Of a stretch of 64,000 bases of DNA, positions 6,587 to 54,902 are shown one piece after another. The position numbers and the translations under genes are program-made. Source of the DNA: Bacteroidales bacterium (lineage in GTDB: Bacteria > Bacteroidota > Bacteroidia > Bacteroidales > Muribaculaceae); assembly GCA_014800845.1 (NCBI GenBank), contig JAAVFJ010000053.1:1-64000 (forward strand). Reading direction: 5' to 3'. A model generated the notes under the pieces. It was not told the origin of the DNA. It ran no database searches and was given only the letters and a program-made list of their open reading frames with translations. Each line of letters opens with the position of its first letter. The first letter of the stretch is position 1.

Positions 6587-6696
6587 GCAATTAAAAAGTG
6601 GTTTAACTGCGGGCGCGTGAAATGAGGGCAAAGATGGCCGGTGAGGGGGCCGGAGCCTACATTCCAACCTAAGTCCGCGTAGGTTTAAGGAATATA

Positions 6697-6866
6697 ATGG
6701 CCCGGGCAGGTGTTCCGGCTCAAAGCATCGTCAGCACCCCTTCCCAAGCCTGCGGGCTCAGTGGCAACGGTCTGATTATGCCTGCATTGCGAGCAGGCTG
6801 CGCTTCTTACGGCAGCGGGTCTGCCGGGGCTTTTCACCCCGTTCTCTTGACCCGGGTCAAAGATTG
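6697..6866 (-). promoter_or_regulatory. Cobalamin (AdoCbl) riboswitch
   Basis: On the minus strand the leader contains, in order, GGGGTGAAAAGCCCCGG, a CCGCTGCCGTAA segment, GCCACTG (plus coordinates 6759-6765), GGGAAGG, and a B12 box GAGCCGGAACACCTGCC (6705-6721). These are the conserved landmarks of the cobalamin riboswitch in the right order and spacing. It sits between a consensus promoter and the start of the surface protein at 6586, about 110 bases before the ATG. Repression of that gene by cobalamin is expected from the family. Confidence 0.92.
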
Positions 6867-6872
6867 TCGGTG

Positions 6873-8177: not shown

Positions 8178-8228
8178 AACCGCCGCATCGTGAGGATGAG
8201 GCGGTTCTTTTTTTCTTTGTGCAAACAT
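8178..8228 (+). terminator. Intrinsic terminator, second copy of the direct repeat
   Basis: Same hairpin and tail as 7673-7724, with a T-run of seven. The two copies bracket the 52-residue gene, 454 bases apart, which suggests tandem duplication of a promoter-gene-terminator cassette followed by decay of one copy, or capture of the gene between repeats. Confidence 0.8.
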
Positions 8229-8257
8229 TCGGGCCCTCGGTCGTGTTTCATAGATGT

Positions 8258-9424
8258 ATGAAACAGACTCGATTTGTAAACATTAAGAATGCCTCTGCAG
8301 GGATGGCTCTGGTGGCTGCTCTGCTTATGGTGGTAAGTTTCGTGGCGCCCGGTTCGGTCAGTGCAGCTAAGCTCTCCGACTCGCAGCTTGCCGCGTTTGA
8401 GGACAGTGTGCAGCTGATAGTGCAGCGTGAGCTTGCGCCGCAGGATTACAAGGGTCCGCGCAGTGCGGCCACCGACACTCTCTGGCATAAGGACATACTG
8501 GGCGAGGGCTACGAGGCCCGCACAGTCAATGAAGGGACAGCCTTCGACGGCCCGGTGGTGAGCACCATCGTGCGGCGCAAAGCCCCCGGCCACTCGGGGC
8601 GCGCCGTGCTCTATGTGCATGGCTTCAACGACTATTTCTTTCAGACAGAAATGGGCAAGAAATTTAACGCCGAGGGGATAAACTTCTACGCCGTGGACCT
8701 GCGCCGCTACGGTCGCAGCCTGCGCCCCTGGCAATACCCCTTCAATGTGCGCGATGCCGAGGAATATTTCGTAGACATCGACTCCGCCCTCAATCAGATT
8801 CGCCGCGATGGCAACACGGAAATCACCCTGGCCGGCCACTCCACCGGCGGACTGACTACGGCGCTCTATGTGGCTATGCGCGGCGCACGCTGCGGAGTGG
8901 TGCGTCTGGTCACCGACAGCCCCTTCCTGGAGTGGAACTTCTCGTCGCTCTATCGCCACCTGCTCATCCCCTCCGTGGGCGCATGGGGTGCGCTGAGCCC
9001 CGACACAAAAATCGACCAGGGGCACTGCGATGCCTATTCTCACTCGCTGCTGAAGCAATACCACGGCGAGTGGGAGTATGACACGGCCTGGAAGATGATT
9101 TACTCGCCCCCCGTCACGGCTTCCTGGATACGCAGCATCTCTCGCGCGCAGAGCCGGCTGATGAAGAATGCCTCCCACATCACCGTGCCGGTGCTCGTGA
9201 TGCACTCCTCGCGCGGGCTGCACGAATGTGGCTGGACCGAGGCTTGCCAGAGCGCCGACATAGTGCTCGACCCGCAGATGATAGCCTCGCGCGGTGTGAA
9301 ACTCGGCAAGCAGGCCGAGGTAGTGGCTATTGACAGTGGCATCCATGACCTGATTCTCTCAGAGCTTCCCGTGCGTGAGCAGGCCTACCGCGTGATTTTC
9401 GATTTCATAGAGCGTACTCGTTAA
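8258..9424 (+). CDS. Exported alpha/beta hydrolase (serine aminopeptidase/lysophospholipase-like)
   Basis: Secreted or envelope hydrolase of 388 residues. I chose the ATG at 8258 (MKQTRFVNIKN) because it gives a signal peptide with core MALVAALLMVVSF and cleavage after VSA. The 13 residues available upstream lie in the terminator copy. The alpha/beta fold is shown by VLYVHGFNDYF (oxyanion strand-loop), LRRYGRSLRPW, and the nucleophile elbow LAGHSTGGLT. A late Asp/His pair is plausible in VLVMHSSRG and IDSGIHDLILSELP. This pattern matches the serine aminopeptidase S33/monoacylglycerol lipase group. The substrate cannot be read from sequence; lipid or peptide esters are the usual choices. It stands alone between two repeat features. 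Confidence 0.85.
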   Translation: MKQTRFVNIKNASAGMALVAALLMVVSFVAPGSVSAAKLSDSQLAAFEDSVQLIVQRELAPQDYKGPRSAATDTLWHKDILGEGYEARTVNEGTAFDGPVVSTIVRRKAPGHSGRAVLYVHGFNDYFFQTEMGKKFNAEGINFYAVDLRRYGRSLRPWQYPFNVRDAEEYFVDIDSALNQIRRDGNTEITLAGHSTGGLTTALYVAMRGARCGVVRLVTDSPFLEWNFSSLYRHLLIPSVGAWGALSPDTKIDQGHCDAYSHSLLKQYHGEWEYDTAWKMIYSPPVTASWIRSISRAQSRLMKNASHITVPVLVMHSSRGLHECGWTEACQSADIVLDPQMIASRGVKLGKQAEVVAIDSGIHDLILSELPVREQAYRVIFDFIERTR

Positions 9425-9435
9425 AAATATTTTGC

Positions 9436-9632
9436 ATAAGCAAGTGTTTAAATTTAATTTATACAATATGCGGCTTATTTTTTAGGCGGTTTCGCTGCGG
9501 AGCGAAGGAGCTTAGCGAGCTAAGCGACTGAGCGACAAAGTGAAAACGACAAAAAAGAAGCCGCATATTGTATAAAAGATTGAAAACAGACTTATTCAGA
9601 TTACTATCGTTTAAATTTGAACACTTGCTTAT
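9436..9632. repeat. Near-palindromic repeat element, copy upstream of relA
   Basis: 22-base terminal inverted repeats at 9436-9457 and 9611-9632 differ by a single base and start ATAAGCAAGTGTT. Inside lies a perfect 18-bp inverted repeat (9459-9476 and 9558-9575). The centre is an imperfect palindrome around GCTTAGCGAGCTAAGC with the family core GCGAAGGAGC and a GTGAAAACGAC tail. The whole unit could fold as one long hairpin and may terminate the hydrolase transcript. The right end contributes the TTG of the relA promoter. Confidence 0.85.
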
Positions 9633-9655
9633 ATGCGTTTTTATGATTAAATTTG
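9625..9655 (+). promoter_or_regulatory. relA promoter, with -33 box inside the repeat element
   Basis: TTG at 9625-9627, exactly 20 bases, TAAATTTG at 9648-9655. The TTG is part of the right terminal repeat of the element at 9436-9632. The predicted leader is about 12 bases. Confidence 0.72.
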
Positions 9656-9673
9656 CGCATCTGTATGTAGATT

Positions 9674-11914
9674 ATGAAAGAATCCAGCAAATATAAATAC
9701 CCTGTGAGCCCCGAGGCTCCGGTTTCAGATACTGAGACTCGCGAGATTCGCGAGTCTCTACGCAACCTTATCCGGAGCACCGGCCATGTCTTCACCCCCG
9801 CCGAGCGCCGCGAGCTCTTTGATATGGCTAATCCCACCGACGGCGGCAATGTCCCGTTGCGCGATGAGCACGCGATGCACACGGCCCTCATGAGCGTGCG
9901 CACCGCCCAGCTGTTTGCCTCCATGATTGAGCCGGACCGCAACATCCTCATCACCATCCTCATGATGCCTCGTGTGCGTGGGGGGGAGTTGAGCACCGAG
10001 CAGGTGAGCGAGCGTTGGGGCGCCGATGTGGCCGAACTCTGCAGCGGACTGATGAGGGTGAGCGAGTATGCGGGCCGAGGCACCGCCGTGGACCAGGACA
10101 ATTTCCGCGGTCTGCTCCTCTCGCTTGCGCAGGACATTCGCGTGATAATCATAATGATAGCCCGCTCGCTGGTACTCATGCGCGCCATCAATCATCACCC
10201 CGACCAGGCCTGGGTGCGCAACGTAGCTTTTGAGGCCAACTGCCTCTACGCCCAGCTGGCCCACCGCCTGGGCCTCTATAAAATCAAAGGTGAGCTGGAG
10301 GACCTGAGCCTGAAATACACCAACCGCGAGATCTACACCTCCATAGCCCGTCAGCTCGAGGCCACCAAGCGTGAGCGCGATGCCTACATAGCCGCGTTCA
10401 TAGCGCCGGTGAAGCGTGAGCTGGAAAAGGCCGGCCTGAAGTTTACCATCAAGGGGCGCACGAAATCCATCTCCTCAATCTGGGCGAAAATCAGAAAGCA
10501 GAAAGTGGACATGAACCACATCTACGACCTCTTCGCCATACGCGTGATTATCGACACTCCGCGTGAACGCGAGAAGAGCGACTGCTGGCTGGCTTACGGC
10601 ATACTTGCCGACATGTATCGCGCTAACCCCGCGCGCATGAAGGACTGGATTTCTCTGCCCAAAAGCAATGGCTACGAGAGCCTGCACGCCACCGTCATGG
10701 GACCCGAGTCGAAATGGGTGGAGGTGCAGTTCCGCACCGTGCGCATGGACCTCGTGGCCGAAAAGGGTCTGGCCGCCCACTGGCGATATAAGGGGGGCCA
10801 CGGCGACTCCACCGACCAATGGATGAATAACATACGCGACATTCTGGAGAGCGCCGACTCCGGCCCCATGCAGCTCATGCGCTCCATGAAGATGGATGCC
10901 TACGGGCGCGAGGTGTTTGCCTTCACTCCCAAGGGTGACCTGTTTCGCCTGCCGGCAGGGGGCACCGTGCTCGACTTCGCTTTCCACATACACAGCAATG
11001 TAGGGTGCCGCTGCTCGGGTGCCATAGTCAATGACCGCCACGAAAAAATCACCTATAAGATTAAGAATGGCGACACGGTGGAGATTCTCACCTCGGCCAA
11101 TCAGGTCCCCAAGCAGGACTGGCTCTCTATTGTGGTCTCCACGCGCGCCAAGAATAAAATCCGTCAGGCGCTCAACGAGGCCAAGGCCCAGACCGCGCAG
11201 CTCGGCAAGGAGATGCTGGAGCGCCGCCTGAAAAACCGCAAGCTGGAACTCGACGAGGCCATCCTGGCCCGCTACATGAAGCGCGAGGGATACAAATTCA
11301 ATACCGACTTTTTCGCTGCGATAGGCGCCGAACAACTTGACCCCAACAAGGTGATAAGCGGCTGCCTCGAGATTGAGAGCCACGACAACAAGCCCGACGA
11401 CGAGAACCGCGTGGGTGCCGAAGAGTTCACTCTGCGCCACGATGAGCAGACTGAGACCACCGGCAGCGATGTGCTCGTGATAGGCGACAAGAATATCCGC
11501 GGCCTTGCCTACAAGATGGCCCGCTGCTGCAACCCAATCTATGGCGATAAGGTGTTTGGCTTCATCAGCGCCGACGGCGTGGTGAAGATTCACCGCACCG
11601 ACTGCCCCAATGCCCGCAACATACGCGAGCGCTACCCCTACCGCCTCATAAACGTGGAGTGGAGCGGCGCCGCCGGAGCTCTGATGCCCGTCACGCTCAA
11701 AGTGCTGGGGCAGGATGACATAGGAATCGTGACCAACATCACCTCAATCATCAGCAAAGAACCGGGAGTGCAGCTGCGCAACATCTCCATAGACAGCCAC
11801 GACGGCATCTTCCGTGGCTACCTCATAATCGGAGTGCCTGACCGCACCTCGCTCCCCTCGTTGATTCGCAAAATCTCAGCAGTGAAAGGTGTGAAAGAGG
11901 TGACCAGAAGTTAA
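9674..11914 (+). CDS. relA: RelA/SpoT-family (p)ppGpp synthetase, hydrolase domain degenerate
   Basis: Cytoplasmic stringent-response enzyme of 746 residues that makes (p)ppGpp from GTP/GDP and ATP. Synthetase features are intact: GRTKSISSIW (261-270), IYDLFAIRV (283-291), SNGYESLHATV (331-341) and VEVQFRT (349-355). TGS (about 410-470), the cysteine region MARCCNPI and a C-terminal ACT domain follow. The N-terminal HD hydrolase domain has lost its signature: where LLHD(V/T)xED is expected it reads TILMMPRVRG (94-103), and where KLADRxHNM is expected it reads IMIARSLVLM (160-169). It is therefore probably a synthesis-only RelA-type protein, implying a separate SpoT elsewhere. The stop codon TAA is embedded in a repeat terminus. 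Confidence 0.93.
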   Translation: MKESSKYKYPVSPEAPVSDTETREIRESLRNLIRSTGHVFTPAERRELFDMANPTDGGNVPLRDEHAMHTALMSVRTAQLFASMIEPDRNILITILMMPRVRGGELSTEQVSERWGADVAELCSGLMRVSEYAGRGTAVDQDNFRGLLLSLAQDIRVIIIMIARSLVLMRAINHHPDQAWVRNVAFEANCLYAQLAHRLGLYKIKGELEDLSLKYTNREIYTSIARQLEATKRERDAYIAAFIAPVKRELEKAGLKFTIKGRTKSISSIWAKIRKQKVDMNHIYDLFAIRVIIDTPREREKSDCWLAYGILADMYRANPARMKDWISLPKSNGYESLHATVMGPESKWVEVQFRTVRMDLVAEKGLAAHWRYKGGHGDSTDQWMNNIRDILESADSGPMQLMRSMKMDAYGREVFAFTPKGDLFRLPAGGTVLDFAFHIHSNVGCRCSGAIVNDRHEKITYKIKNGDTVEILTSANQVPKQDWLSIVVSTRAKNKIRQALNEAKAQTAQLGKEMLERRLKNRKLELDEAILARYMKREGYKFNTDFFAAIGAEQLDPNKVISGCLEIESHDNKPDDENRVGAEEFTLRHDEQTETTGSDVLVIGDKNIRGLAYKMARCCNPIYGDKVFGFISADGVVKIHRTDCPNARNIRERYPYRLINVEWSGAAGALMPVTLKVLGQDDIGIVTNITSIISKEPGVQLRNISIDSHDGIFRGYLIIGVPDRTSLPSLIRKISAVKGVKEVTRS

Positions 11915-11930
11915 GAGAGTGTTTGAATCT
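11911..11930 (+). repeat. Single terminal repeat of the palindromic element at the relA stop
   Basis: TTAAGAGAGTGTTTGAAT matches the ends of the element at 17545-17744 (18 of 18 with its right end) and includes the relA stop codon TAA. No core and no second end follow, so this is a lone terminus. Confidence 0.7.
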
Positions 11931-11992
11931 AATCACTCGCCAAGAAACACAGTACTGAATCTGCCAAAGAAAAATAAAATATTAAAAAAGTT

Positions 11993-12033
11993 ATTCCGCA
12001 TATTGCTAATGTGCGGAATTTGTTTTATCTTTG
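11993..12033 (+). promoter_or_regulatory. Promoter with overlapping palindromic operator candidate
   Basis: TTG at 12003-12005, exactly 20 bases, TATCTTTG at 12026-12033. A perfect 8-bp inverted repeat, ATTCCGCA (11993-12000) and TGCGGAAT (12012-12019), straddles the -33 box with an 11-base gap. That is an apt place for a dimeric repressor. It drives the 1059-residue secreted protein, with a leader of about 88 bases. Confidence 0.68.
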
Positions 12034-12127
12034 CCCCGTTGAAAGTTCTTTGAATCAATTTATTGAATCAATTTATTGTTGAAATTAACTGACAAAACCG
12101 TATTTTTCATTTTTAATTCTATTCAAT

Positions 12128-15100
12128 ATGACCGGAACCCACACCCGAAAATGTAAACTGTGGTCGGCCAGTTTGATGTTAGCGGCAGGAGGGCTGATGA
12201 CCTCGCTGACTGCGAATGCAGACCGACTTGTAACGGAAAATTTCGAGTATCCCGACGGAACTCAGCTCTATCAGCAGGGGGCATGGCTTCAGTATTCCAC
12301 TAATGCTGCCGATCCTGTGACTGTCTCCACTCCCGGCCTTACTTACAGCGGCTATCTCAATGATGCTGTAGGCGCTAAAGTTACGCTCGGACAGACTGCA
12401 TCGGGCCAGGACCTGATGATTCCCGTGACTGACGAGAAAGGCATTGACGCCGGCCCCGTTTATTACTCCTTCCTTATTAATGTTAAGGATTTAGGGGAAA
12501 GGGATTCAAAAGCCTATTTCATGTGCCTGGTGCCCAACACCAAAAATGGCCTTAACGACAAGGGCTCAGGCAGTGAGTATGTGAAGCTCTACGCTCTCCC
12601 CTCCGGAGCAGAGGATAAATTCAACTTTGCGTTCCACTCCAGCGCCGCTTACGACAAAGCCTCTGTCAACAAATCCGACGATTGCGATTTGAATACCACC
12701 TACCTCATCGTGATGCGTTGGGAAAAAGCTGCTGACTCAGGCTCCAAAGATGCTATCAAGATGTGGGTAAATCCCGTGATTGGTGCTCAGGAACCTGTAG
12801 CCACAGTGACACGTTCTTCGGAGGACACAGGCAGCAATCTCGCCGTAACTAACGGCGGCCTGAAATATATAGAATTCCGTCAGGGTGCCACTGCTTCAAA
12901 CTCAGCTCCCCTGGTGGAGATCGACGGTTTGCGCGTGGCCGACACCTGGGCTGACCTCTTTGATTTGAGCTCACAGCCTGCCGACAAGCCTGCCATCTTT
13001 ACCTCAGTGGTGGAGAAGGAGCTCCCCATGATGCTTGTAGGTGAGTCTTACTCCTTCACCGCCAACATTTCCGGCGAGAACCTGGAGGATGATATAACCT
13101 TCACACTCTCTTCCGAGATTAAAGCTTCCCCCGCTTCCGTAGCTAAGGAGGATGCTATGGCCGAAGGTGGCGTAGATGTAACCTTTACCATCACCCCCAC
13201 CGCAGCCAACGATAATTATTCACGCATAATCACCCTGACCAGCGGCGAGGCACAGTTTGTGGAGATCCGAGCCACAGGCACTGTAATCGCACCTGTCAAG
13301 ACCCCCACCTCAGTGGCTGCCAAAGCGCAGGTTGATAATATGTATGAGTTCATGCAGTACACCGGCAAAGCCGTAATCACCGCCATCGAGGAGGAATCTG
13401 CCGGCCGCGTGGTTTATCTGCAAGACATGTTTGGCGCCATGAAGCTCGACTCACAGTGGCTTCAGCTCAGCGAGTATGACTTCAAGGTGGGCGACGAGAT
13501 TTCCGGCTTCCTCTTCATGTTCACCGAAGATGCGTCAGAGAAACTTCCCGTCATGACTCCGCTGGTGCTCAACGAGGAAGACCCTCTCTTCACAGTGACA
13601 CAGGAGGGCAAGTTCAAGACCCCCACCGAGATTCGTGTGGCCGATGTGACAGCTGCCACCGCCGCTGACTATCTCTGGAAACTCGTGACCGTGAAGGATG
13701 CTACCTTTACCTCAGAAAATCAGGCAACCTTTGCCAACGCCAAGAATTTCTACTTCACCGACGCCGACGGCACCCGCGGCACACTGCGCGTGTTCTCCAC
13801 CTCCGGCCTGGCCGGCAAGGATGTGCCCACCGGCACCGTGTCGCTCACAGGCATAAGCAACTCAGCCGCCCAGCTCTCACTCTTCCTGCGCGGAGAGGAC
13901 GACATCGTGGCGGGCGAGCCCTCGCTTAATGTGACGCAGGAGCGTCTGTTTGACTTCTCTACCAACGCAGCTCCCGTAGGCGAGGCTACCCCCGTGATGG
14001 CCTACACCGTGGTGGCTGAGAATCTGCCCCAGGCACTTCCCATAGAATTCGGTGGCGCAGACGCTGCTTACTTCTCGGCTAACATCGATGCCGTGCCCGC
14101 CGGCTCCGGCACCCACGTAATCACCGTGACCTACAACCCTGCGGCTATCGGTCGCCACTCAGCCTCGTTCAGCATCAATGCCGATGGCGTGAACCCCGAA
14201 TTCAACTTCACCCGCAGCCTGAGCGCAAAGGCTTACCACCCCCGGAACCTCCCGGTAATCACCATAGACCCGGCTGAACTCGTGTTTGAGACCATCCCCA
14301 ACAAGCCTGTGAAGAAGACTGTGACGCTCAATGCCGAAAACTGTTTCGACTACATCCAGGGCCAGCTCAGCAACACTTCCGGCAGCGCCTTCACCATCGA
14401 CAACACCTACCTGCTCCCCGACTCCAAGAATGTGACTCTCACCATTACTTTCAATCCCTCGGAGGAGGGCGAATATGCAGCCGTGGCTACCTACAAGACC
14501 ACCCTCGGCAAGGAGAACGCCATCCTGAACCTGCGCGGTGTGTGCGAAGGTGAGGTTATCCCCGAGGACCCGCAGGGTGATCCCTTCGTGGTTAACTCAG
14601 CAAACCCGTTTGTGACTTACAGCCAGGACTTCGACTCAGCCTCTCACAATGAGCCCCTGAAGCTCGAAGGCTGGACTAACGTGGCTGCCAAGGGTACTCG
14701 CGCTTGGTGGGGCTACGAGAGCTCTGATGACAATGACCGCTTCACTGCTGCCAAAATCACTGCTTACGATAGCAAGCTCTCTTATGAGAATGGCCACGAC
14801 GTGGAGATGCTCCTCATCTCACCCGCGCTCAACTTCAAGGATGCCGGCGACCGCCATCTCACCTTCCGCCTCCGCGGCGACTATCTCAGCGAAGGCCAGG
14901 AGAGCACGCTCGACATATTGCTCGGCATACCCAACGACACCGAGCAGCCTGACTTCTACTTGATGGATGGCTTCGGCATACCCGCCACCGCCGACGAAGC
15001 CGGCGAATGGATACCCTACGATGTTGACATGAGCGTGGTGGAAGACATGCCCGCCACCTTCCACATAGCCTTCCGCCTGCAGTCACACCGCAGCAAGGAG

Positions 15101-15307
15101 CAGCCCGCCACCTACTACATAGACGACTTCAAGTGGAACCCCTCAGGCACCGTGCTTGCAGTGGACAGCATCATCGACGGCTCAGAGCTCTATGATGTCT
15201 ACAACCTGCAGGGCATGCAGCTCCTCAAGGGCGCCGACGCTCCCACGCTGAAGACACTGCCCGCCGGCCTCTACATAGTGAATGGCCGCAAGGTAATCCT
15301 GAAGTAA
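12128..15307 (+). CDS. Large secreted multidomain protein with C-terminal sorting-like tail
   Basis: 1059 residues with an N-terminal signal (LWSASLMLAAGGLMTSLTANA). The order seen is: a beta-rich N-terminal domain (about 30-290); Ig-like segments; an OB-fold-like region around VVYLQDMFGAMKLD, of the DUF5689 sort; further Ig-like repeats; then a choice-of-anchor-J-type jelly-roll near residues 830-1010 (TYSQDFDSASHNEPLKLEGW and LLISPALNFKD). It ends VYNLQGMQLLKGADAP and LPAGLYIVNGRKVILK, the pattern of a T9SS type A sorting domain. No enzyme motif is evident. It is probably a cell-surface or extracellular protein of unknown ligand. It is monocistronic with a possible repressor site, and its stop codon merges into the next repeat element. 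Confidence 0.8.
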   Translation: MTGTHTRKCKLWSASLMLAAGGLMTSLTANADRLVTENFEYPDGTQLYQQGAWLQYSTNAADPVTVSTPGLTYSGYLNDAVGAKVTLGQTASGQDLMIPVTDEKGIDAGPVYYSFLINVKDLGERDSKAYFMCLVPNTKNGLNDKGSGSEYVKLYALPSGAEDKFNFAFHSSAAYDKASVNKSDDCDLNTTYLIVMRWEKAADSGSKDAIKMWVNPVIGAQEPVATVTRSSEDTGSNLAVTNGGLKYIEFRQGATASNSAPLVEIDGLRVADTWADLFDLSSQPADKPAIFTSVVEKELPMMLVGESYSFTANISGENLEDDITFTLSSEIKASPASVAKEDAMAEGGVDVTFTITPTAANDNYSRIITLTSGEAQFVEIRATGTVIAPVKTPTSVAAKAQVDNMYEFMQYTGKAVITAIEEESAGRVVYLQDMFGAMKLDSQWLQLSEYDFKVGDEISGFLFMFTEDASEKLPVMTPLVLNEEDPLFTVTQEGKFKTPTEIRVADVTAATAADYLWKLVTVKDATFTSENQATFANAKNFYFTDADGTRGTLRVFSTSGLAGKDVPTGTVSLTGISNSAAQLSLFLRGEDDIVAGEPSLNVTQERLFDFSTNAAPVGEATPVMAYTVVAENLPQALPIEFGGADAAYFSANIDAVPAGSGTHVITVTYNPAAIGRHSASFSINADGVNPEFNFTRSLSAKAYHPRNLPVITIDPAELVFETIPNKPVKKTVTLNAENCFDYIQGQLSNTSGSAFTIDNTYLLPDSKNVTLTITFNPSEEGEYAAVATYKTTLGKENAILNLRGVCEGEVIPEDPQGDPFVVNSANPFVTYSQDFDSASHNEPLKLEGWTNVAAKGTRAWWGYESSDDNDRFTAAKITAYDSKLSYENGHDVEMLLISPALNFKDAGDRHLTFRLRGDYLSEGQESTLDILLGIPNDTEQPDFYLMDGFGIPATADEAGEWIPYDVDMSVVEDMPATFHIAFRLQSHRSKEQPATYYIDDFKWNPSGTVLAVDSIIDGSELYDVYNLQGMQLLKGADAPTLKTLPAGLYIVNGRKVILK

Positions 15308-15500
15308 GTAAGTGTCAAAAATTAATGGACATATAAGGCGCAGTTATTTTCGAGGCGATTTCGCCGCGGAGCGAAGGAGCATAGCGAGCTATGCGACTGA
15401 ACTACAAGGTGAAAGCGACCGAAAAGAACAAGAATTATATGTTCAAGATATAACACTTACTTCAGAATCGGATATCGTTTAATTTTTGATACTTACTTAA
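15305..15500. repeat. Near-palindromic repeat element, copy at the end of the large secreted protein
   Basis: The left end (15305-15325, starting TAAGTAAGTGTC) begins with the TAA stop codon of the preceding gene. The right end (15471-15500) is its diverged inverse. The core, GGAGCGAAGGAGC with stem ATAGC/GCTAT around GAGC and then GACTGAACTACAAGGTGAAAGCGACC, closely matches the copy at 9436-9632. A further inverted terminus-like segment lies at about 15450-15463. The right end is identical over 30 bases to 54828-54857 in inverse orientation. Confidence 0.85.
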
Positions 15501-15542
15501 ACCTCCCCGCGTAAAACAAAACGCATAACCATAATTGACGGA

Positions 15543-15608
15543 GTGCCCCGGAAGGGTAACTGCCGACCCCCATCGGTCCAAGCAGTTCCCTCCCGGGGCA
15601 CAGTTTTT
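15543..15608 (+). terminator. Long three-tier hairpin terminator
   Basis: An outer stem GTGCCCCGG/CCGGGGCAC, an inner AACTGC/GCAGTT and an apical CCGA/TCGG hairpin are followed by five T on the plus strand. It lies between the convergent secreted-protein and mutL genes. The outer stem sequence GTGCCCCGGA recurs in the palindrome at 36791. Confidence 0.75.
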
Positions 15609-15626
15609 CTGATTTCGGGGTGGGGG

Positions 15627-17534
15627 TCAGGAGAAGAGAGCGTCGAGGCGGCTGGTGGGTAGCTCTATTATTATGGGGTTGCCGCCGGGGGTGTAGACGG
15701 GGTCGGGGAGGCTGTAGAGATCGCTGAGCAGCTGCTCCATCTCGGCGTCGGTGAGTCGCTGGCCGCGGCGTATGGCACCGGCACGGGCCATTATCAGGGC
15801 TACGCGGCTGAGCATGTCGCCGGCTATGGGTTCGCTCACGGTTGAGCCGCTGCCGTCGTCGGCCACCGATTCCACTACCTTGCGCAGCAGTTCGCCTGCT
15901 GATTCATTGCCTAACGATGCGGGCACGCCCTCTATGCGCCATGTGCCGGGCTCGCCCGTCGGCGCTATCAGGAAGCCGAGGCGGCTCACTTCGTCTTCCA
16001 CACTTTCCAGTAGCAGCGACTGCGCCGGCGTGAGGGTGAGGGTCTCGGGGAAGGCCACTTTCTGCATGGCGAGTGCCTCAGATGAGTTGGAGAGCTCGCG
16101 CATGAAGCGCGCGTAGAGCACCTTTACGTGGGCGCGGTGCTGGTCAATCACGCTGATGCCCTGCTTGGAGCGGGTTATGATATACTTGTCGGCCGCCTGC
16201 AGGCAGATGGCTCCCGGAGTGGAGGGGGTGGGAGTGCCGGGAAGCGTGGGTGGCTCGGCGGGGGCCTCGGGCACTTCGCTCAGCGATGCTCCGTCGTTCA
16301 TAAAACCGGAGTAGAGGCTCTCCCAGTTTTTCACGGGATTTGACTTTGGGCGCTGCGGGAAATCAGAATGGCCTGAGCCGGTGCGGCGCGGAGCGGGGGA
16401 GGAGGGGAGGGGGGAGTAGTCGGAGAATTGCGCGAAAGGGTTGTAGGAGGTGTCCACATCGGTGGATGGTGCCTCCACAAATTCGCCGTCGCGGGCCGGG
16501 TCGAGGGGCATCACATCCTGGTTGAAATCTATGGAGGGGGCTTGTGCAAACTTGCCGAGCGCGCCCCTCACGGCAGCCTCCAGAATGGGGCGGATGGTGG
16601 TCTCCTGCTCAAACTTAATCTCATGTTTGGTGGGGGAGATATTGACGTCGATGGTAGAGGGGTCCACCTCGAAGCGGAGGAAGAAGCAGGGCTGTGTGTC
16701 GCGCGCGATGATTCCTTCGTAGCAGTTAAGTATAGCCTTGCGGAAGTAGGGGTGATACATGTTGCGGCCGTTGGCAATGAGGTATTGCAGGGCGCCTCGC
16801 CGTTTGGCATACTGAGGGTGGCTGATGAATCCGGAAATCTTCACCACCTGCGTGTCCACCTCTATCGGAATGAGCTGCTTGGAGAGCCCGGCGTTTTTCC
16901 AGAGGCTGCAGATGCGCTCCTTGAATGAGCCGGGGCGCAGGTCTAAGGTGCGGGTGCCGGTTTCGATGCTGAGGTGGATATGTTCGTTCACCAGGGCCAT
17001 GCGCTCAAATTCACGCATGATGTTGCTGAGCTCCACGGCGTCGCTCTTCAGGAATTTGCGGCGCGCGGGGGTGTTGTAGAAGAGGTCACGCACCATGAAA
17101 TTAGAGCCGCGGGTGCAGACGCATGACTCCTGCAGCTCCTTCTGCGAGCCGCTGATCACGATGCGTGTGCCCAGAGTGTCGGCAGCCGTCATGGTGCGGA
17201 GCTCCACGTGAGCGATAGCACTGATTGAGGGCAACGCCTCGCCACGGAAACCCATAGTGCGCAGTGCGAACAGGTCGGAGGCGGAGGTGATTTTGGAGGT
17301 GGCGTGGCGCTCAAAAGCCATGAGCGCGTCGGTGGGCGACATCCCCTTGCCGTTGTCCACGACCTGGATGAGAGTGCGCCCGGCATCCTTTATGATAATC
17401 TTTATTTCAGTAGCGCCGGCATCGACAGCGTTTTCCACCAGCTCCTTAACGACAGCCGCCGGACGCTGAATAACCTCTCCGGCAGCAATCTGATTGGCCA
17501 CCGAATCGGGAAGTAGACGTATAATATCGTTCAT
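15627..17534 (-). CDS. mutL: DNA mismatch repair protein MutL
   Basis: GHKL ATPase that links mismatch recognition by MutS to downstream repair. It is 635 residues long. The N-terminal ATPase shows ELVENAVDAG (31-40), DNGKGMS (60-66) and GFRGEAL (about 95-101). The C-terminal dimerisation domain is present, but the two metal-binding motifs of endonuclease-type MutL are altered. DQHAxxE reads DQHRAHV (about 440), and the CPHGRP-like motif near the end reads TPGGNP (615-620). Nicking activity is therefore doubtful. It follows the OstA-like gene, with a repeat element filling the 206-base gap. A TAAATTTG box at 17568-17575 on the minus strand could be a promoter of its own but lacks a -33 partner. 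Confidence 0.95.
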   Translation of the reverse strand: MNDIIRLLPDSVANQIAAGEVIQRPAAVVKELVENAVDAGATEIKIIIKDAGRTLIQVVDNGKGMSPTDALMAFERHATSKITSASDLFALRTMGFRGEALPSISAIAHVELRTMTAADTLGTRIVISGSQKELQESCVCTRGSNFMVRDLFYNTPARRKFLKSDAVELSNIMREFERMALVNEHIHLSIETGTRTLDLRPGSFKERICSLWKNAGLSKQLIPIEVDTQVVKISGFISHPQYAKRRGALQYLIANGRNMYHPYFRKAILNCYEGIIARDTQPCFFLRFEVDPSTIDVNISPTKHEIKFEQETTIRPILEAAVRGALGKFAQAPSIDFNQDVMPLDPARDGEFVEAPSTDVDTSYNPFAQFSDYSPLPSSPAPRRTGSGHSDFPQRPKSNPVKNWESLYSGFMNDGASLSEVPEAPAEPPTLPGTPTPSTPGAICLQAADKYIITRSKQGISVIDQHRAHVKVLYARFMRELSNSSEALAMQKVAFPETLTLTPAQSLLLESVEDEVSRLGFLIAPTGEPGTWRIEGVPASLGNESAGELLRKVVESVADDGSGSTVSEPIAGDMLSRVALIMARAGAIRRGQRLTDAEMEQLLSDLYSLPDPVYTPGGNPIIIELPTSRLDALFS

Positions 17535-17544
17535 CGTAAATCTC

Positions 17545-17744
17545 TTAGAGAGTGTTTGAATTTAAACCAAATTTAATATTCAGAGAGTTTTAGAAATTTT
17601 TGATTTTATCTCAAAGGATCTTTTGGGCGCTTTTCCAAAGATTTCATCGGTCGCGATGCCCGCATCGCTCCCTCTTCAACTTTGAAAAATCATCCCAAAA
17701 TCTCTCTTTGAGATAAAATCATTTAAATTCAAACACTCTCTTAA
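17545..17744 (-). repeat. Near-palindromic repeat element between the OstA-like gene and mutL
   Basis: Terminal repeats at 17545-17566 and 17722-17744 begin TTAGAGAGTGTTTG and TTAAGAGAGTGTTTG. A perfect 15-bp inner inverted repeat (17602-17616, 17706-17720) follows. The core on the minus strand reads GAAGAGGGAGCGATGC, GGGC, GCATCGCGACCGATGA, the same subfamily as the copy at 1-131. The end at 17741-17743 is the stop codon of the OstA-like gene. Confidence 0.85.
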
Positions 17745-21017: not shown

Positions 21018-21044
21018 TAAGATAGTGTTCAAATTTTAGCGATT
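21018..21044 (+). repeat. Single terminal repeat of the palindromic element before the SurA-like gene
   Basis: TTAAGATAGTGTTCAAATTT followed by TAGCGATTAT resembles the right end of the element at 9436-9632 (read inverse). It abuts the ATG of the SurA-like gene. No core or partner end is present in the 66-base gap. Confidence 0.55.
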
Positions 21045-36714: not shown

Positions 36715-36931
36715 CGGCAAACGCAAGGCGCGGAGCGCCATTAATCTCTATAGCCGGGGGCAACGCCCCCGGTGGTTTCCAAGAGGGAGAGTGCCCCGGA
36801 GGGGTACGACATCCGGATATGGCATGTGCTTAAGTGTGGTACCCCTCCGGGGCACATATTTTGTCGGAACTTCCCGGGGGCGCTGCCCCCGGCTATAGAG
36901 ATTAATGGCGCTCCGCGCCTTGCGTTTGCCG
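36715..36931. repeat. 217-base long inverted repeat
   Basis: Arms 36715-36761 and 36885-36931 are perfectly complementary over 47 bases and extend to about 57 with one mismatch. Inside is a second perfect 17-bp inverted repeat (36791-36807, 36839-36855) of GTGCCCCGGAGGGGTAC. Each outer arm also holds its own small palindrome (CCGGGGGC, spacer, GCCCCCGG), so cruciform or multi-hairpin folding is possible. No transposase reading frame lies inside. Confidence 0.9.
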
Positions 36932-49937: not shown

Positions 49938-49969
49938 GGGGCTGGCTTGGGAGATTTGGGATTTGCGAT

Positions 49970-50108
49970 GGCTGCTGTCTTGGGAGTTTTGGGAGCTATG
50001 GGAGTTTTGGGAGTTAGGGGTATCGCTATTCCGGTGGAGCTCCCAAAATTCCCAAAACTCCCAAAACTCCCTTAGCTCCCAAGAAAACCAAAACTCCCAA
50101 GGCAGCAG
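49970..50108. repeat. GGGAGTTTT-unit long inverted repeat
   Basis: The left arm carries repeated TTGGGAGTTTTGGGAG units flanked by GCTGCTG; the right arm is the near-complement (CTCCCAAAACTCCC units, then GCAGCAGC). The arms are 50-60 bases with a few mismatches. A lone arm of the same type is at 61900-61935. The interval lies between two convergent terminators, in a 324-base gene-free gap with no credible frame. Confidence 0.8.
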
Positions 50109-50113
50109 CTATC

Positions 50114-50152
50114 AAAAAAACAGCGCTTCGGAGGGGACTCCGTTGCGCTGTT
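50114..50152 (-). terminator. rplS intrinsic terminator
   Basis: On the minus strand AACAGCGC, an inner CGGAG/CTCCG hairpin, GCGCTGTT and then seven T. It is 49 bases after the rplS stop. Confidence 0.85.
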
Positions 50153-50200
50153 TGTGCAATCAAAAATGTGCCTTATGGCTTAATAAGCAATTTCAAGCTG

Positions 50201-54827: not shown

Positions 54828-54902
54828 TTAAGTAAGTATCAAAAATTAAACGATATCAAATTCATAAGTAAGTGTCAAAAATTAAATCTGAACACTTACT
54901 GA
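54828..54902. repeat. Nested termini of the palindromic element between ispH and tadA
   Basis: 54828-54857 is identical over 30 bases, in inverse orientation, to the right end at 15471-15500. 54865-54885 is identical over 21 bases to the left end at 15305-15325. A short inverse end ACACTTACT (54892-54900) contains the ispH stop codon. There is no core, so this looks like a deletion product or a core-less derivative. Confidence 0.82.

Follow-up and report, generated by a model that had tools for sequence, protein, structure and literature searches.

A homologous hairpin module in miniature inverted-repeat elements with different terminal repeats in Bacteroidales

The DNA analyzed here, referred to throughout as the window, is a stretch of 64,000 nucleotides from a Bacteroidales bacterium of the Muribaculaceae (positions 1-64,000 of the forward strand of contig JAAVFJ010000053.1, assembly GCA_014800845.1; the genome amounts to 2.45 Mb in 82 contigs). 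It contains three full copies and one partial copy of a palindromic element, and all four are present as a preliminary description of the sequence had stated. The exact element ends were set from the flanking repeats. Copy 1 (9439..9629, plus strand) lies between a gene for an S33 hydrolase (8219-9424) and a RelA/SpoT gene (9674-11914); it is bounded by the IS630-like terminal inverted repeat (TIR) AGCAAGTGTTTAAATTTAA of the type that we call class A, with TA at 9437-9438 and 9630-9631. Its hairpin module, read on the strand that carries the GA motifs, occupies 9472..9571 of the plus strand (cmsearch 96.9 bits, and by its fold). Copy 2 (15307..15497, plus strand), likewise of class A (TIR AGTAAGTGTCAAAAATTA), has TA at 15305-15306 and 15498-15499 and a module at 15341..15440 of the plus strand (102.8 bits, and by its fold); it overlaps the TAA with which the upstream gene stops (15305-15307), and mutL follows in convergent orientation. 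Copy 3 (17548..17740, minus strand; class B, TIR GAGAGTGTTTGAATTTAAA) sits upstream of mutL between TTA at 17545-17547 and TTA at 17741-17743, the latter being, as its complement TAA, the stop codon of an OstA/LptA-like gene; its module is found at 17606..17706 of the minus strand (93.2 bits) and folds likewise. Since the target duplications at 15305-15307 and 17741-17743 coincide with TAA stop codons, the neighbouring gene was left intact by the insertion. The partial copy at the contig start (1..125, minus strand) consists of a module at 1-92 (81.9 bits, cut by the contig edge) and a related TIR, GAAACAGTTTAAATTTA, which is followed by TAA.

The elements are real and repeated far beyond the window. 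A core model (R1), made from 18 cores of the same genome with 25 pairs and with window copies in its training set, matches the four copies at E<=2e-14, while the next-best match in the window has an E-value of 0.12. Scans of the window that use no model find the TIR motif nine times against 1.06 expected and the core motif four times against 0.54 expected; neither count is reached by any of 100 shuffles. Across the whole genome the TIR pattern has 98 matches (reversed control, 0) and the core model 50, and DNA searches with the three full copies return 32, 49 and 36 matches, pieces counted. Many contigs of this genome start or stop within an element; the copies thus interrupt assemblies. With a size of about 190 bp, no genes, TIRs and short target duplications, and with TIRs in common with autonomous insertion sequences (ISs), these small and repeated elements without coding capacity are almost certainly miniature inverted-repeat transposable elements (MITEs), i.e. 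gene-less, non-autonomous transposons. A kind can therefore be assigned to a family that had been left without a name; ISs with matching TIRs exist in relatives and, as remnants, in the genome itself. A protein-coding core was deemed unlikely by eye, since the TIR classes do not agree in the reading frames of their common core.

Four TIR classes were distinguished, and all of them (A, B, C and P) contain one homologous hairpin module of about 100 nucleotides. The ends read TA-AGNAAGTGT in class A (copies 1 and 2), TTA-GAGAGTGTTTGAATTT in class B (copy 3) and GGTGGGTTCTAT in class P; class C, which occurs elsewhere in the same genome, joins other ends (TGAACTCATTTAAACTTTTT, starting GAACTCATTTAAAC) to the same core. 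Class P elements measure 188-201 bp between TIR tips in 27 out of 28 rows. Direct repeats, counted from the TIR tip outward, are specific to the class: class P has 4 bp in 18 of 28 elements (mean of the shuffles 3.2, maximum 9), class C has 3 bp in 12 of 17 (mean 3.6, maximum 8) and class B has 3 bp, of the form TWA, in 12 of 20 (mean 7.2, maximum 13). Classes P and C thereby exceed every shuffle; class B is the weakest case. For class A the duplication is recognized by position only: TA stands just outside the tip in most of 45 rows, a few of which are class P elements picked up by the loose class A pattern, and no longer repeat is seen. The ends beginning with TAAG that had been attributed to the family are partly target duplication, and the copies belong to different TIR classes.

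All three full copies fold as a single long hairpin from which a side arm branches on the 3' side, with RNA fold z-scores of -11.1, -7.0 and -11.1 for copies 1, 2 and 3; the fold of a class C copy taken from another part of the genome is similar (z -9.6). The module has the form GA-R-G-GA-[stem]-GA-C-Y-GA, in which two GA/GA internal loops surround two base pairs and a stem of 6-7 bp forms the cap. In an alignment of 110 distinct rows, which was fitted to the model, 94.4% of the cells are paired, compared with 64.1% when shuffled and 35-44% when slid, and the covariation score is 0.674 as opposed to 0.185 in the shuffled rows. This agrees with the earlier observation that the arms differ in sequence between copies and still pair, around a conserved core. 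The covariance-model search proposed at that time has been run and yields many matches, mostly intergenic, with compensatory changes. Between the two GA/GA loops, the pair R44-Y70 is AT in 60 rows, GC in 38, GT in 9, AC in 1 and something else in 2. The covarying register is R44-Y70 and G46-C69; the pairing given by RNAalifold and the covariance model is one step off beside the GA loop, and the G-U counts of the model's pair 46-70 were therefore left unused. The rows of the core tally and of alignment A3 come from loci of a DNA pattern that fixes GGA, GAC and GA, so only positions outside these letters count as conservation; A43, which is A in 110 of 110 rows, and G42, which is G in 101, were both free in the search pattern.

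The mismatches within the module are distributed very unevenly between the strands. In a palindrome maintained solely in its double-stranded DNA form, G-T and A-C mismatches should turn up at the same rate. Instead, two pairs give GT 66 times and AC not once in 93 distinct cores. In the outer stem of 105 cores, aligned by a procedure blind to mismatch type, the counts are 109:7 for GT:AC, 145:3 for AG:CT and 55:2 for GG:CC. The TIRs serve as a control (84 TIR pairs), with 100:57 for GT:AC and 40:47 for AG:CT; they are uneven too in GG:CC (40:8) and TT:AA (84:22). Expressed as ratios, the module stem shows about 15:1 (GT:AC) and 48:1 (AG:CT), the TIRs 1.8:1 and 0.9:1, where the stem tally omits 425 module mismatches lacking a matched neighbour on both sides and the TIRs were read position by position without such a rule. 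Seventeen loci were set aside as chance from the core, orientation and mismatch counts. The large excess of G-T over A-C means that selection acts on the GA-motif strand, as RNA or as single-stranded DNA, and we hold this strand-specific structural selection to be well established.

The module is seen mostly in Bacteroidales. Model R1 matches 33 of 36 other genomes of the same genus and 1 of 24 genomes of the same order. The family is dispersed, as the preliminary description had it, and mobile, and it has further copies in Bacteroidales. An order-wide draw gave matches in 16 of 392 other genomes, three of them from the same family, and of the 394 others in a draw from the phylum, searched with a model R2, a single genome matched, again a member of the order; both draws applied strict filters and scored few candidates (ten per genome in the phylum draw). 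A pattern scan of named genomes returned at least 118 stretches, the true ones mostly from Bacteroidales; among the stretches listed, the order is represented by Muribaculaceae, Prevotella, Bacteroides, Barnesiella, Paludibacteraceae and Salinivirgaceae, and the class P elements occur in Prevotella. One of the 17 loci set aside, L203, comes from a record labelled as a metagenome-assembled genome (MAG) of Verrucomicrobiales and holds a module at about 820-1060 (R2 E-value 2.4e-7; 231 bp between repeats). It lies in a stretch of 67% GC, shows the same fold with other stem letters and has TIR-like ends GAGACTGTTGAAAAAG. With its inverted repeat and its model match, L203 indicates that the module is not strictly confined to Bacteroidales; the other 16 loci have no inverted repeat and no good model score (best E-value 0.082). 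A plasmid search with one class P and one class B element gave no match, and a phage search with one class A element gave a single weak match of 35 bases. Separately, a MAG titled Paenibacillus sp. NALB_7961_12 contains two strong class A modules (L246, L262), one of them on a contig of 515 kb, which reflects either a mislabelled bin or a transfer.

The TIRs point to more than one kind of helper transposase. Class B TIRs match ISs beside transposases in relatives (L308 and L349), of which L308 carries the Pfam domains DUF4096 and DDE_Tnp_1; class C TIRs match an IS with DUF4096 of a second type and DDE_Tnp_1 (L326), and class P TIRs one with DUF772 and DDE_Tnp_1 (L322), each in a relative. For class A, a match to DDE_3, the IS630 type, lies between class A TIRs in a relative (L397), and remnants with DDE_3 matches persist in the source genome, between two TIRs in L407 and beside one in L402. 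The IS subgroup names IS427, ISL2, IS5 and IS630 and the target duplications usual for each follow common usage. Judged by their ends, copies 1 and 2 would correspond to an IS630/Tc1-mariner-like helper and copy 3 to a helper of the IS5 superfamily (IS427-like), and movement in trans by transposases of these two kinds is the likely consequence. That several helper systems move MITEs carrying one and the same module is, in our judgement, probable.

Some autonomous ISs carry the module themselves. The transposase of the IS at L325 was used as a query against 149 genomes of the family, 27 of which matched, and 30 loci were fetched; a module reaches E<=0.01 in 14 of these, and six contain a pair of modules (L333, L334, L335, L347, L356 and L358). 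The two-module ISs are autonomous and IS427-like, with one module just inside each TIR; only 0-2 bases separate the modules from the 34-bp TIRs of L333 and L334, and TTA flanks the IS on both sides. The GA strand reads inward in 27 of the 29 modules that were scored with a transposase in the locus (two modules of L329 lie outside its IS, and two of L183 could not be scored for direction). Furthermore, the two sides differ: at the R-Y pair, 11 of 12 modules on the 5' side have T (GACT) and 12 of 17 on the 3' side have C (GACC). The deepest drawn split of the module tree (92/92; a rough tree with a midpoint root, based on 100 columns and with many forks open) parts the IS modules by side, the 5' modules of L329, L333, L335 and L347 falling on one side and the 3' modules of L325, L333, L335 and L355 opposite them. 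The 3'-type side also contains class B and seven of the class P elements, the 5'-type side classes A and C together with 17 class P elements, and class P forms three separate groups. The class labels require at least 11 changes on this tree, where the least possible number is 5 and the shuffled mean 67.5, which suggests helper switching. Our reading of this topology is that the one-module MITEs stem from one or the other end of an ancient element with two modules and later changed their TIR class.

Taking these results together, we lean towards the interpretation that the elements are MITEs moved in trans by DDE helpers and that they share a module working as RNA. According to this model, DDE transposases would recognize the TIRs and mobilize the MITEs in trans, and outside transcription entering an element would yield the folded form of the module at either IS end. 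The folded RNA would protect the ends of the transposon, and its transposase gene, against read-through, a role which we put forward tentatively. The MITEs would have retained one module while swapping their TIRs, and hence their helpers. More doubtful, though possible, is the wider proposition that the structured module, as RNA or as strand-specific single-stranded DNA, functions as a common component of the ends of transposons from two unrelated DDE superfamilies, and that the module forms a long-lived lineage of its own that changes helpers over time, a non-coding parasite of transposons.

Several observations weigh against this interpretation. In the 110 rows, pairs changed on both sides number 22, barely more than the 19.7 in the shuffles, and 9 of 500 shuffles reach 22. 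The module has no preferred orientation to neighbouring genes (co-directional, ++, 40; opposed, --, 35; divergent 25; convergent 13; n=113); this would not be expected if the module RNA strongly blocked transcription, and it speaks against any strong influence on the transcripts of the host. An intact helper was not found in the source genome, which has one match to PF01609 and two IS630 remnants, one of them under the family cut-off. Model R2 detects no module at E<0.1 in the ISs found to have class A, B, C or P TIRs (29 loci), so the module is not needed for the movement of those ISs. The class B duplication count falls inside its shuffled range, because nearly all of its sites are TAA or TTA. 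Finally, a relative (G018) lacks copies 1 and 3, and its flanks are too diverged for an empty site to be read at base level.

What is more challenging is the decision between RNA and single-stranded DNA as the acting form. The alternative holds that one strand of the module folds as DNA in the course of replication or transposition, and that the module is a cis-acting part of the transposon end, bound by the transposase or by a host hairpin-binding protein. This is possible, and several findings speak for it: in the two-module ISs the GA strand at both ends is the strand with its 5' end at the tip, the lack of an orientation bias to host genes is in keeping with it, the DNA fold is also strong (z -11.2), and transposons with single-strand hairpins are known (IS200/IS605, REP). 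On the other hand, 58 of the 93 distinct cores close the hairpin with G-T, a pair that RNA accommodates naturally and DNA less favourably; the ISs whose TIRs match lack the module, and transposases of the IS630 and IS5 types, being DDE enzymes, work on ends that are double-stranded. The frequency of the G-T closing pair leans to RNA, and we consider RNA somewhat the better supported of the two forms.

A host-serving RNA, for example a stabilizer in the 3' untranslated region, a terminator or a small RNA that is mobile by chance, is improbable. The stable folds and the placement of 132 of 143 copies between open reading frames of at least 100 amino acids would suit such a role, but the orientation to genes is unbiased (40:35), G018 has no element at the sites of copies 1 and 3, and three of the 36 same-genus relatives have no match at all. 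About as improbable is the assumption that there is no selection on the module and that its arms stay paired because template switching corrects imperfect palindromes and because amplification is recent. Long palindromes are prone to such correction, and one 3'-type module (L354:1800-1901) has become a perfect palindrome, its right half now being the exact complement of the left (GAGGGAGCGATGG...CCATCGCTCCCTC); this is as expected of template switching, a process which may also happen here. Yet the GA/GA mismatches at A43 and G42 persist beside covarying pairs, and the mismatch types are strand-biased in the module stem and far less so in the TIRs. Independent palindrome growth, which the preliminary description had offered next to selection on structure, is therefore insufficient alone. 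It is very improbable that the elements are REP-like and moved by HUH transposases (Y1, RAYT) with GAAG as a tetranucleotide guide: to our knowledge, HUH enzymes do not make TIR elements with class-specific target duplications of this sort, and the Y1 transposase domain PF01797 does not track the module, being unmatched in 15 of 34 same-genus genomes with modules (the source genome included) and present in two of the three without (scored by eye; several genomes are incomplete), so HUH enzymes are not needed. The resemblance to REP/RAYT repeats lies in short tagged hairpins, with GAAG upstream of the hairpin recalling GTAG-tagged REPs, and in frequent G-T pairs (PMC3733652).

MITEs are usually viewed as decayed ISs that are defined by their ends alone; in the elements described here it is the middle that lasts, under selection on one strand, while the ends point to different transposases. 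Conserved folds in non-coding IS ends are known from the bridge RNA of IS110 and the omega RNA of IS200/IS605, which belong to DEDD or HUH systems and have a guide function; here the fold is found in DDE elements, and no guide segment was noticed. For bcr1 of the Bacillus cereus group, we know of one lineage and of no two-module IS. It is likewise a MITE-like mobile repeat, of about 150 bp and with a conserved fold (PMC2267715), and belongs to another phylum. MITEs of the IS5 superfamily and of other ISs are known and include BrickBuilt, MITE239 and MITE464 of Porphyromonas gingivalis, which are reported to be alike in their TIRs and not in the remainder (PMC4596501). Further MITEs are the Correia elements of Neisseria (review PMC10969869) and a derivative of IS982 in Cardinium (PMC9769881). 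The present elements agree with MITEs of the IS5 superfamily and of IS630/Tc1-mariner in size, TIRs, short duplications, intergenic sites, absence of genes and TIRs held in common with ISs. They differ in that elements with TIRs of different transposase superfamilies have a homologous folded module in common. Closer in taxonomy is PINSR of Prevotella intermedia and P. nigrescens, a 188-bp intergenic repeat with 177 and 184 copies in two strains, whose authors report no TIRs and reject MITE status (PMC4755523). Compared by description only, it shares with class P the order, a similar size and the occurrence in Prevotella, and its copy number would fit as well. MITEs with the TIRs of ISs are well known; in partial listings of the literature, no account was found of a fold common to MITEs of different transposases. 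Should the module have a part in transposing the element or in guarding it against read-through, DDE elements would be added to the ISs whose non-coding ends are structured, and helper switching as well as the long life of MITE lineages could be tested directly.

Shorter forms accompany the full elements. In the window, a derivative without the module, with no strand assigned, was recognized by the TIR scans at 54829..54902; it consists of a class A right-end piece fused to another TIR pair. Elsewhere in the genome, five class A elements (L088, L089, L090, L097 and L052) measure about 75-85 bp and lack the inner palindrome. Four of them have one common junction at ATAT direct repeats and the fifth differs, which could mean either recurrent deletion of the hairpin or a mobile short form. 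Lone TIR-like pieces at 11912-11931 (TAAGAGAGTGTTTGAATCTA) and 21018-21037 (TAAGATAGTGTTCAAATTTT) adjoin gene ends and are perhaps remnants.

Among known RNA families, Rfam gives only a cobalamin riboswitch in the window (6688-6870, minus strand, 65.3 bits); five element loci searched at E<=5 give one match, far under the curated score. The window contains other repeats as well. Between genes, at 36715-36931, there is an inverted repeat of 97 nucleotides, 86% paired, close to whose centre lie GTGCCCCGGAGGGGTAC and its complement. A hairpin at about 15543-15602 (GTGCCCCGGAAGGG...CCCGGGGCAC) resembles it, and the two palindromes possibly represent a second, unrelated family. Clustered imperfect repeats of CTCCCAAAA(C/T) and its complement lie at 49962-50153.

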